From: Stenotrophomonas sp. ESTM1D_MKCIP4_1
GTDB taxonomy: Bacteria > Pseudomonadota > Gammaproteobacteria > Xanthomonadales > Xanthomonadaceae
Direction: 5' to 3'
Assembly: GCF_003086895.1 (NCBI RefSeq)
Contig: NZ_CP026004.1
Location: 1,400,731-1,464,730, forward strand
DNA: 64,000 nucleotides
The position numbers were made by a program, and so were the translations under genes. Below, piece after piece: positions 20,072 to 23,331 of the stretch. Position 1 is the stretch's first letter; the number at the start of each line of letters is the position of its first letter. Below the pieces are notes generated by a model that saw only the letters and a list, made by a program, of their open reading frames with translations, was not told the DNA's origin and ran no database searches.

Positions 20072-21195
20072 GCGCCGTCCTCGACCTGACCTGCGAACTG
20101 ATCGCGCGGCCGTCGGTGACGCCGGACGATGCCGGTTGCCAAGCGCTGCTGGCCGCGCGCCTGCAGCAGGCCGGGTTCCAGTGCGACCACCTGCGCCTGG
20201 GCGAGGTCGACAACCTGTGGGCCACCCATGGCAGCGGTGAACCGGTGCTGGTGCTGCTGGGCCACACTGACGTGGTACCGCCGGGCCCGCGCGAGGCGTG
20301 GCAGAGCGATCCGTTCATCCCGCAGATCCGCGACGGCGTGCTCTATGGCCGTGGCACGGCGGACATGAAGGGCAGCGTGGCGGCGTTCGTCATCGCCGCC
20401 GAGCAGTTCGTGGCCGCGCATCCCGACCATGCCGGCACGCTGGCCGTGCTGTTGACCAGCGACGAGGAAGGCGATGCCATCGACGGCGTGCGCCATGTCG
20501 CGCGCCTGTTCGCCGAGCGCGGGCAGCGCATCGACTGGTGCATCACCGGCGAGCCGTCTTCGACGGCGACGCTGGGTGACCTGCTGCGTGTCGGCCGACG
20601 TGGCAGCCTGTCGGCCAAGCTGCGCGTGCAGGGTGTGCAGGGCCATGTGGCCTACCCGGACAAGGCGCGCAACCCGATCCATCAGGCGGCGCCGGCCTTG
20701 GCTGAACTGAGTGCACGGCGCTGGGACGAAGGCTTCGAGAGCTTCCCGCCGACCAGCCTGCAGATCTCCAACATCCACGCCGGCACGGGTGCCAACAACG
20801 TGATTCCCGGCGAGATGGAGGTGGATTTCAACATCCGCTACAACCCGCATTGGGATGCGCCGAAGCTGGAAGCGGAGATCACCGCGCTGCTGGAGCGGCA
20901 CGGCCTGCAGTACACGCTGAAGTGGCACCGCAGCGGCGAACCGTTCTACACCCCGGAAGGTCCGCTGCGTGCGGCGGCGCGCGCGGTGCTGGCCGAGCAC
21001 ATCGGTCGCGCCCCGGAAGAAAGCACCGGCGGCGGTACCTCCGATGCGCGCTTCATCGCACCGCTGGGCGCGCAGTGCATCGAAGTGGGGCCGGTCAACG
21101 CCAGCATCCACCAGGTGGATGAGAACGTGCGCGTGGACGAGCTGGAAGCCCTGCCTGGGCTGTACCAGCGGCTGGTGGAGCGCCTGCTGGTGTAA
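20068..21195 (+). CDS. dapE: succinyl-diaminopimelate desuccinylase
   Basis: Zinc hydrolase that removes succinate from N-succinyl-LL-diaminopimelate, two steps after DapD. The 375 residues hold the M20 peptidase metal motifs: [21 protein letters not shown] and [11 protein letters not shown], plus [14 protein letters not shown] near the end. The GTG start overlaps the preceding stop (GTGA), indicating coupling. The length is standard for DapE. The operon dapD-yffB-like-dapE covers two steps of the succinylase lysine pathway. Confidence 0.95.
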
Positions 21196-21299
21196 CGGTA
21201 GGTGCCGACTGGTAGGTGTCGACCGTTGGTCGGCACGCCTCTGGCTGGTTGCCAACGCAACTGTTGCACGGCTGCAGAAAGCGGGTTAGCTTCAATCCC

Positions 21300-21401
21300 A
21301 TGTCGATCCGCCTGGCCACCGCCGTCAACAACACCAACCGCAATAATCTGCGCGCGAATAATCGTGCGCGGCCGATGCGGGACTGCGCCCTGGGTAGATA
21401 G
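21300..21401 (+). CDS. Asn-rich leader peptide of the asnB attenuator
   Basis: A 33-codon reading frame just upstream of asnB. Residues 10-21 contain seven Asn (positions 10, 11, 13, 15, 16, 20 and 21), coded by AAC at three and AAT at four, followed by a stop at 21399-21401. The peptide itself probably has no function; its translation speed through Asn codons would report charged tRNA-Asn. No good Shine-Dalgarno precedes the ATG. TTGCAC (21264-21269), 17 bp, TAGCTT (21287-21292) would start transcription at about the A of the ATG, so the leader may be leaderless. A longer in-frame start at 21216 exists but lies in REP-like DNA. Confidence 0.8.
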   Translation: MSIRLATAVNNTNRNNLRANNRARPMRDCALGR

Positions 21402-21458
21402 ACAGCACCATACGCCCGGACACCAGAAAACCCGCATCGGCCGATGCGGGTTTTTTTG
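21369..21458 (+). promoter_or_regulatory. transcription attenuator of asnB: antiterminator and Rho-independent terminator
   Basis: The terminator is a perfect 10-bp inverted repeat CCCGCATCGG/CCGATGCGGG (21431-21450) flanked by AAAA and seven Ts. The 13 bases CGGCCGATGCGGG at 21369-21381, near the end of the leader peptide, exactly repeat the terminator's 3' side (21438-21450), so they can instead pair with 21431-21443 and block the terminator. Upstream, CCGC and GGCC (21308-21317) can pair with 21370-21380. A small hairpin 21351-21370 also encloses the last two Asn codons. A ribosome stalled at Asn codons would open these and allow antitermination. Seen: the sequences. Inferred: the mechanism. 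Confidence 0.82.
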
Positions 21459-21541
21459 TGCCCGGGCGCAGCCCTCCCGGGCCAGGTTGGCCGGTCGAAC
21501 ACCTTCCCCCCGTGTAAATCCCCACAACAGGAGCGCCACCC

Positions 21542-23233
21542 ATGTGTTCGATCTTCGGAATCTTCGGCCTTCAGGCCGGTGACGATCTTCCCGCCCTGCG
21601 TCGCCACGCGCTGGAACTGTCGCAGCGGCAGCGTCACCGCGGGCCGGACTGGAGCGGCGTGTACCTGGACGAAGGCGCGCTGCTGGTCCATGAGCGCCTG
21701 GCCATCGTCGACCCGGCCGGTGGCTCTCAGCCGCTGCTGTCGGCCGATGGCCAGCTGGCGCTGGCGGTCAACGGTGAGATCTACAACCACCAGGCGCTGA
21801 AGGCCGCGCTGACCACCGCCTACGACTTTCAGACCGGTTCGGACTGCGAGGTGATCAACGCGCTGTACCGCCAGGGCGGTGCACCTTCGCAGTGGCTTGA
21901 ACAGCTCAACGGCATCTTCGCTTTCGCCCTGTGGGACCGCGCTGCCGGCCGCGTGCTGGTCGCCCGCGATCCGATCGGCGTGGTGCCGCTGTACTGGGGC
22001 CACGATGCACAGGGGCGCCTGCGCGTCGCCTCGGAAATGAAGGCGCTGGTCGATTCCTGCGCCGACGTCGCCCAGTTCCCGCCGGGCCACTACTACGACA
22101 GCGCCAGCGGTGAGCTGGTGCGCTACTACCAGCAGCCGTGGCGCGAGTACGCCGACGTGGAAGGGCGCCAGGCCGATCTGGCCGAACTGCGGCAGGCGTT
22201 CGAGCAGGCCGTCGAACGCCAGCTGATGAGTGACGTGCCTTACGGCGTGCTCCTCTCCGGTGGCCTCGATTCGTCCCTGGTGGCCGCGGTGGCCGCGCGC
22301 TATGCCCGTCGCCGCATCGAGGATGGTGGGCAGAGCGAAGCCTGGTGGCCGCGCCTGCACTCCTTCGCAATCGGCCTGAAGGGCTCGCCGGACCTGGCCG
22401 CCGCGGCCGTTGCCGCAGAGGCACTGGGAACCGTCCACCACGGCTTCGAGTACAGCTTCGAGGAAGGCCTGGATGTGCTGCCGGAAGTGATCCGCCACAT
22501 CGAGACCTACGACGTCACCACCATCCGTGCGTCCACGCCCATGTTCCTGCTGGCGCGCCGGATCAAGGCCATGGGCGTGAAGATGGTGCTGTCCGGCGAG
22601 GGCAGCGACGAGATCTTCGGTGGCTACCTGTACTTCCACAAGGCGCCGGATGCGCGCGAATTCCACCAGGAACTGGTGCGCAAGCTCGACGCCCTGCACA
22701 ACTACGATTGCCTGCGCGCCAACAAGTCGATGATGGCCTGGGGCGTAGAGCCGCGCGTGCCGTTCCTGGACCGCGAGTTCCTCGATGTGGCCATGCGTTT
22801 CGATGCCGCACACAAGATGGTCGGTGCCGGCTTCGGCGGCCGCCGCATCGAAAAAGCGGTGCTGCGCGAGGCATTCGATGGCTACCTGCCCGACAGCATC
22901 CTGTGGCGGCAGAAGGAGCAGTTCAGTGATGGCGTCGGCTACGGCTGGATCGATGGCCTGAAGGCGCATGCCGAAGCGCAGGTGAACGACCGCGTGCTGG
23001 CCGCAGCGGACAAGCGCTTCCCGCACAACCCGCCGCAGACCAAGGAGGCGTACTACTACCGCCATCTGTTCGAGCAGTTCTTCCCGAGCCGTGCCGCGGC
23101 CGAAACCGTGCCGGGGGGCAAGTCGATCGCCTGTTCCTCGCCGGCCGCCATTGCCTGGGATGCCAGCTTCGCCGCCGCCGCCGACCCGTCGGGCCGCGCC
23201 ATCGCCGGTGTTCACGAGCAGGCCCTGGCCTGA
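21542..23233 (+). CDS. asnB: glutamine-hydrolysing asparagine synthase B
   Basis: Makes asparagine from aspartate, ATP and glutamine. The 563-residue product begins MCSIFGIFG, with the N-terminal Cys nucleophile of the class II glutaminase domain. RHRGPDWSG, LAIVDPAGGSQPL and NGEIYNH follow. The synthetase half has the pyrophosphate loop LLSGGLDSSL near residue 238 and MVLSGEGSDEIFGGYLYF. Length and motifs match bacterial AsnB. It is a single-gene unit, preceded by an Asn-codon attenuator and followed by a long inverted-repeat terminator, so asparagine supply probably sets its expression. Confidence 0.96.
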   Translation: MCSIFGIFGLQAGDDLPALRRHALELSQRQRHRGPDWSGVYLDEGALLVHERLAIVDPAGGSQPLLSADGQLALAVNGEIYNHQALKAALTTAYDFQTGSDCEVINALYRQGGAPSQWLEQLNGIFAFALWDRAAGRVLVARDPIGVVPLYWGHDAQGRLRVASEMKALVDSCADVAQFPPGHYYDSASGELVRYYQQPWREYADVEGRQADLAELRQAFEQAVERQLMSDVPYGVLLSGGLDSSLVAAVAARYARRRIEDGGQSEAWWPRLHSFAIGLKGSPDLAAAAVAAEALGTVHHGFEYSFEEGLDVLPEVIRHIETYDVTTIRASTPMFLLARRIKAMGVKMVLSGEGSDEIFGGYLYFHKAPDAREFHQELVRKLDALHNYDCLRANKSMMAWGVEPRVPFLDREFLDVAMRFDAAHKMVGAGFGGRRIEKAVLREAFDGYLPDSILWRQKEQFSDGVGYGWIDGLKAHAEAQVNDRVLAAADKRFPHNPPQTKEAYYYRHLFEQFFPSRAAAETVPGGKSIACSSPAAIAWDASFAAAADPSGRAIAGVHEQALA

Positions 23234-23237
23234 GCCC

Positions 23238-23305
23238 AAAAAAGGGGGCGGAGGGGATCAAGTCGTTCAGGAACAAACGACATGATCCCCTCCGTCCCCT
23301 TTTTG
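23238..23305. terminator. long bidirectional hairpin terminator after asnB
   Basis: AAAAAAGGGGGCGGAGGGG at 23238 and its near-complement CCCCTCCGTCCCCTTTTT ending at 23305 form a long outer stem, with an inner stem AGTCGTT/AACGAC. As, then Ts, flank both sides, so it could stop transcripts in both directions. It starts five bases after the asnB stop. Confidence 0.85.
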
Positions 23306-23331
23306 TATCATCGGCCCCTGCACATTGGGGA

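Follow-up and report, generated by a model that had tools for sequence, protein, structure and literature searches.

A predicted asparagine-specific transcription attenuator upstream of asnB in Stenotrophomonas and related bacteria

Introduction

Is the asparagine synthase gene of this Stenotrophomonas chromosome controlled by a ribosome reading asparagine codons? The question is raised by a short region on the forward strand of the window (the whole 64,000 nucleotide stretch of DNA analysed here), where a small open reading frame rich in Asn codons and a hairpin followed by a U-run lie ahead of asnB. In the enteric his, leu, thr, trp and pheA attenuators, a leader ORF with many codons for the amino acid being synthesised is combined with overlapping alternative hairpins and an intrinsic terminator, and the leader stop codon is placed so that a ribosome standing there masks segment 2. 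The original prediction had assigned the asnB leader to this layout, and every anatomical part of it was indeed found. We consider it very likely that the region senses asparagine as a transcription attenuator of the classical, ribosome-mediated type. This reading rests on how the region is built and conserved, on pairings that exclude each other, and on the dependence of folding on ribosome position.

Materials and Methods

The asnB upstream regions compared with that of the window came from several sources. Named contigs supplied 80 loci, the best of 586. A class draw covering 369 genomes, 7 of which had asnB at E≤1e-100, added six new loci. An order draw of 398 genomes, 307 with asnB, added 27 new loci among those returned and 80 stretches that were fetched. 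To these were joined 30 loci from each of two families (asnB in 33 of 41 and 34 of 39 genomes), and 14 selected genomes. By best matches, the order draw covers 110 of its 307 asnB genomes, three already in the sample being counted. Thirteen exact duplicates, L040 and L147 (short upstream) and L269 were left out of the 254 distinct regions; counts by set use 255 distinct regions, L269 being added. L089 and L185 match asnB from residues 24 and 10 on, respectively, and their upstream ends are approximate.

An automatic rule scored the layout when at least three Asn fell within 12 codons and a terminator lay 15 to 50 nt after the leader stop. For folding with a ribosome in place, each locus was folded at 30 °C, the free RNA being assumed to begin 13 nt beyond the first base of the A-site codon.

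Leader ORF, terminator and putative promoter

The gene downstream of the leader (21542..23233, forward strand) had been taken for asnB, and the assignment holds: its product matches glutamine-hydrolysing asparagine synthase B, NF006949, with 864.5 bits (cut-off 499), and TIGR01536 with 429.1 bits (cut-off 267.1). Upstream on the same strand, the leader peptide ORF occupies 21300..21401, with its ATG at 21300-21302, 33 codons and a TAG stop at 21399-21401; an Asn-rich leader is likewise placed in relatives. The seven Asn within 12 residues reported for this 33-codon leader were recovered when coordinates were rechecked by script. They are codons 10, 11, 13, 15, 16, 20 and 21, starting at 21327, 21330, 21336, 21342, 21345, 21357 and 21360, and the control region that they form (21327..21362, forward strand) reads AAC AAC ACC AAC CGC AAT AAT CTG CGC GCG AAT AAT.

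Stop-free windows of 12 codons with at least five Asn codons number nine on the two strands of the 64 kb, and all nine are inside the leader ORF. When the 330 nt preceding asnB were simulated 3000 times with a first-order Markov model, the highest Asn count was 5, and it was reached once. The pattern AAY AAY N3 AAY N3 AAY AAY has a single match in the genome, at the leader, but the backwards control also has one match, so that this genome-wide count is weak taken alone. The case against chance rests on the position of the leader, on the Asn-window and Markov controls, and on conservation.

Both Asn codons are used. In the control windows of the 164 loci recovered by the automatic rule (see below), AAT was counted 482 times and AAC 485 times. 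The asnB genes of loci L004-L069 have 73 AAT and 464 AAC (73 of 537 being AAT), and all 17 Asn codons of the window's asnB and dapE are AAC. The rarer Asn codon, AAU, seems to be over-represented in the control region, the amino acid being kept via both codons. Asn is the commonest residue of the control windows in these 164 loci, which had been chosen for Asn.

The hairpin is built on a perfect palindrome at 21431-21450, and A/U pairs lengthen the terminator stem to 21427-21454. All its parts lie on the forward strand: segment 3 (21427..21442) comprises the terminator 5′ arm, 21427-21438, and the loop GGCC, 21439-21442; segment 4 (21443..21454) is the 3′ arm of the intrinsic terminator; and the U-run follows at 21451..21457, its first four bases pairing in the stem too. 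Thirteen bases at 21369-21381 had been said to repeat the 3′ half of this terminator, and a script found them identical, letter for letter, to 21438-21450, the first copy lying within the leader ORF. Segment 2, the 5′ side of the antiterminator (GGCCGATGCGGG, 21370..21381, forward strand), overlaps the end of the leader ORF and is a 12-nt perfect complement of 21431-21442; its core is present in other loci. Since segment 3 is common to both structures, the antiterminator (12 bp, 21370-21381 with 21431-21442) and the terminator are mutually exclusive, as had been claimed. A putative 1:2 protector hairpin (21338..21380, forward strand) is formed by the pairings of 21338-21342 with 21376-21380 and of 21348-21357 with 21362-21371, which belong to the MFE structure. 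As a whole, the 161-nt region folds at −67.8 kcal/mol, compared to a shuffle mean of −50.9 (z −4.7, 0 of 200 shuffles being as stable). A consensus scan of 21100-21600 listed neither a promoter nor a forward terminator; presumably the stem swallowed the U-run, and the promoter hexamers fell below the threshold of the scanner.

A putative −35 element, TTGCAC (21264..21269), and a putative −10 element, TAGCTT (21287..21292), separated by 17 nt, precede the leader on the forward strand, the −10 lying 7 nt before the ATG. Of the promoter-like pairs this one has the best position, and it lies upstream of 21381. In the 160 loci scored, the −35 is of the TTGC type with mostly a 17-nt spacer. A TANNNT hexamer was found 6 or 7 nt before the in-frame leader ATG in 91 of these 160 loci, the other distances from 4 to 10 totalling 5; loci devoid of it mostly carry other hexamers at this place. 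Relative to the ATG, the best −35/−10 pair has a mean of 6.6 matches out of 12, versus a median of 4.1 at shifted positions, the choice of ATG having used the same promoter score, which favours position zero. The kept distance between a −10-like hexamer and the ATG suggests that the leader mRNA is probably leaderless, its first base being the A of the ATG or a neighbour of it. Three short repeats, GTTGC at 21248, GCAAC at 21257 and GTTGC at 21263, adjoin or overlap the −35 of this promoter, and similar ones are seen in Stenotrophomonas and Xanthomonas loci. They may form an operator.

Ribosome position and proposed mechanism

Folding with the ribosome position varied had been proposed as a check. 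When the ribosome is placed on the first Asn codon of the window's leader, the antiterminator core has a probability of 1.00 before segment 4 is made, and the terminator one of 0.0008 afterwards. With the ribosome at the stop codon, these values become 0.00 for the antiterminator and 1.00 for the terminator; at the last Asn codon, the terminator probability is 0.67. The behaviour expected of an attenuator, with Asn codons favouring the antiterminator and the stop codon favouring the terminator, is thus obtained. It extends to the other loci: before segment 4, the antiterminator core exceeds 0.5 in 156 of the 164 loci for a ribosome at the first Asn codon, 153 at the middle one, 129 at the last one, and 0 of 164 at the stop, where the terminator exceeds 0.5 in all 164. 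At equilibrium, the terminator still wins in 116 of 164 loci when the ribosome is at the first Asn codon, which means that those loci can only switch kinetically. In ribosome-free folding, the terminator probability is only 0.33 for the window, a value that does not bear out the putative protector hairpin there; it is above 0.5 in 140 of the 164 loci.

The start site, the stalling of the ribosome and the response of asnB to asparagine are what we infer from the sequence. Transcription would start at or next to the leader ATG, and the ribosome would trail RNA polymerase closely. When charged Asn-tRNA is ample, the ribosome would reach the stop codon at 21399-21401 and cover segment 2 (21370-21381), segments 3 and 4 would pair, and the terminator so formed would end transcription near 21457. 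With poorly charged Asn-tRNA, the ribosome would stall in the Asn run; segment 2, left free, would capture segment 3 ahead of the synthesis of segment 4, so that no terminator would form and asnB would be transcribed.

Distribution upstream of asnB

Asn runs, the conservation of which the original prediction proposed to check by alignment, are kept upstream of asnB: the automatic rule recovered the layout in 164 of the 254 distinct upstream regions, window included, while 88 failed and two were too short. The distance from leader stop to terminator has a median of 29 and ranges from 22 to 39. By set, the layout was found in the window (1 of 1), in 64 of 80 contigs of named species and MAGs, 2 of 5 loci of the class draw, 27 of 27 best order matches, 65 of 69 fetched order loci, 4 of 14 selected genomes, 0 of 30 loci of family f190, and 1 of 29 loci of family f188 (one too short). 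Among the loci missed by the rule, inspection revealed an Asn leader in L055, L060, L260, L266 and L268. L055 and L060 have a hairpin devoid of U-run, L266 has too few Us for the rule, and the leaders of L260 and L268 end 425 and 344 nt upstream, respectively. Leader and terminator are both present in L269.

By eye, a leader was found in every examined locus of families f1, f2 and f183, or order-labelled, whose asnB is at least 73% identical to that of the window and which has enough upstream sequence. Families f1 and f2 presumably correspond to Xanthomonadaceae and Rhodanobacteraceae, as identical upstream sequences bear names such as Pseudoxanthomonas and Dyella. Loss of the Asn codons or of the repeat in close relatives, which would speak against attenuation, was looked for, and neither was lost in those examined. 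L039, L044 and L070 lack the leader, with asnB 80%, 74% and 74% identical to that of the window; their contigs are labelled Holophagales, Rhodococcus and Deltaproteobacteria, respectively, and transfer or mis-binning is possible for these genes.

The asnB lineages of lower identity nearly all lack a leader. These are family f190, family f188 with the exception of L150, and loci L181-L190, several of these being from genomes of families f1 and f2. L150 carries the attenuator layout, with the leader MFAIYNTINTTNNRLLRSAGSF. Parsimony on the asnB tree gives six changes of leader presence, and gain, loss and transfer are therefore indistinguishable.

Conservation of the antiterminator pairing

In 138 of the 164 loci, the final 34 nt of the leader contain a complete (5/5) complement of the antiterminator core, versus 24.4 expected by shuffling of that stretch; the other 26 lack it. 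None of the 164 loci has such a complement between stop and terminator, 7 have one within the 38 nt further 5′, and 1 has one within the 38 nt that adjoin asnB on its 5′ side. In 83 of 164 loci the complement occupies a single fixed position, 13 nt ahead of the stop. The register chosen for the columns was picked for best pairing, and the preceding counts in shuffles and other regions serve as its control. In this register, 105 of 164 loci have the first base of the segment 2 core 13 nt ahead of the stop, and 146 have the core in one reading frame. The core columns between segments 2 and 3 are Watson-Crick in 160, 147, 159, 162 and 154 of the 164 loci, the second having 16 G-U pairs in addition, and those of the terminator in 156 to 164. 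Peptide endings vary from group to group (RARPMR, PRAGD, WRARA, GWAGV) yet encode the same RNA motif.

Co-variation of the stems, the other proposed check, was obtained in part. In eight loci from Lysobacter and relatives, segment 3 has a U and segment 2 an A, which keeps the antiterminator pair and turns that of the terminator into G-U. A shuffle test counted 696 Watson-Crick cells versus 595 +/− 11 (z 9.2, with 88 collapsed rows and kinship ignored). When kinship was corrected for by independent pairs on the asnB tree (99 rows), co-change was found in 3 of 3 pairs at column 2, the one with U in segment 3 and A in segment 2, with a p of 0.25, the minimum reachable with three independent pairs. 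The other three of the four columns tested (5, −1 and −2) gave no kinship-corrected co-change. Corrected in this way, covariation is weak and no more than suggestive. A swap control failed, as the core GCGGG is common throughout the group: the native partner outscored all swapped ones in only 17 of 65 loci, and 1028 of 3438 swaps scored no lower than the native pairing. In these alignments, the pairing is supported by a near-invariant core in a fixed place, rather than by rich covariation.

Alternative explanations

Attenuation may be real but be exerted by a protein, a small RNA or a ligand binding the leader, the Asn ORF merely tuning the response. The repeated GTTGC/GCAAC motif at the promoter could bind such a regulator. 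We nevertheless regard this explanation as very improbable, given that Asn is retained through both of its codons and that, at the gathering threshold, Rfam detected neither riboswitch nor T-box in the window, only three tRNAs. No leader family was found at this threshold either, and the search of 21230-21545 at E≤1 returned only five sub-threshold leader or sRNA matches, none of which fits; among them, Thr_leader (RF00506) scores 22.2 bits for a gathering threshold of 55, and Leu_leader (RF00512) 19.4 bits for one of 50.

More remote still is the explanation that the hairpin terminates the dapE transcript, the Asn-rich ORF being a coincidence and the asnB promoter lying within 21458-21541. 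The gene preceding the leader is indeed dapE (TIGR01246), whose end at 21195 is near, and 84 nt are available between the U-run and asnB. However, leader and terminator stay with asnB at loci with no adjoining dapE: among L004-L190, dapE was found in the available flank of 31 of the 98 leader-bearing loci, some flanks being short, and on this ground a hairpin belonging to dapE was ruled out. As judged from these flanks, the leader is associated with asnB and not with dapE. In addition, the Asn richness, the spacing from stop to terminator and segment 2 are kept together, and no well-formed promoter was seen by eye past the terminator, in agreement with the empty scan of 21100-21600.

Just as remote, the Asn-rich ORF could encode a small protein with a function of its own, the hairpin fixing a level of read-through: the peptide is similar over its full length within species groups, but it matches no NCBIfam family, and between groups likeness is confined mainly to the Asn run and to the part of the peptide specified by segment 2, the pattern that a control region should show.

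Relation to known attenuators

The attenuator reading being retained, the asnB leader differs from the enteric his, leu, thr, trp and pheA systems in that it is predicted to sense asparagine, and in its probable leaderless start. T-box control of asparagine genes in Firmicutes also couples expression to tRNA-Asn charging; there, the T-box RNA binds the tRNA directly, independently of the ribosome. Unlike it, the proposed mechanism is ribosome-based, and the asnB leader has no T-box match in Rfam, either at gathering in the window or at E≤1 in 21230-21545.

As to the start, the closest likeness among the systems compared is with the S. meliloti trpL/trpE(G) attenuator, whose transcript is reported to have the leader ATG as its first bases (PMC7298713), as predicted for the asnB leader. 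The S. meliloti system differs by its Trp codons and its trpE(G) target, and its released RNA and peptide are reported to act in trans. Leader-peptide attenuators have been predicted in Actinobacteria (PMC1262725), and premature terminators have been surveyed (PMC2965389); as far as the sections consulted go, these predictions resemble ours in combining, comparatively, a leader peptide and a terminator. The words asparagine and asnB are absent from the main texts of PMC2965389, PMC1262725 and PMC4833913. No title on an asparagine attenuator was found among the matches listed in the open full-text literature. PMC5009743 and PMC5864092 contain asparagine terms on other subjects, in the parts available, and PMC3771888, similarly seen in excerpt, names AsnB2 of a Xanthomonas among the genes tested. 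Provisionally, we regard the asparagine attenuator as a known mechanism with a newly described amino acid.

A broader scenario, which we think unlikely, is that the attenuator would be ancestral to Xanthomonadaceae and Rhodanobacteraceae and leaderless, and that the terminated RNA of ~158 nt and the Asn-rich peptide would also act as a trans signal.

If the attenuator is real, asparagine would join the amino acids sensed by ribosome-mediated attenuation, in bacteria where free asparagine seems needed for charging. The leader peptide would then be predicted to control asnB across numerous genomes of Stenotrophomonas, Xanthomonas, Lysobacter, Dyella and Rhodanobacter. Their naturally occurring variants would allow the tuning of attenuation by segment 2, by the choice of codons and by leaderless initiation to be compared.

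Asparagine supply and neighbouring sequences

Among 34 genomes tested, asnS was over cut-off in 33, and on this count we ruled out that genomes devoid of the attenuator lack AsnRS. In the same genomes, gatA was over cut-off in 4 (G367, G370, G378 and G384), all four having no asnB match at E≤1e-40. No asnA was found in 21 genomes, the E. coli positive control being detected. The genome of the window has asnS over cut-off, no asnA match, and a gatA match below cut-off only. With asnS present, asnA absent and gatA mostly below cut-off, free asparagine seems to be required for the charging of tRNA-Asn. The genome of the window carries a second asparagine-synthase-like gene (G000:C1:2735805-2737007), in an open frame of 648 residues; it is 43% (residues 1-169) and 40% identical to asnB over two stretches, so asnB is not proven to be the sole asparagine supply.

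Nine genomes of the same family (G480, G534, G589, G597, G638, G642, G699, G743 and G745) have no asnB at E≤1e-40. No asnA was found in these nine, and gatA was below cut-off in the five tested for it. They are possibly asparagine auxotrophs.

Past the end of asnB, at ~23240-23310 of the window, a long inverted repeat bounded by runs of A and T was noticed by eye, and is perhaps a bidirectional terminator.
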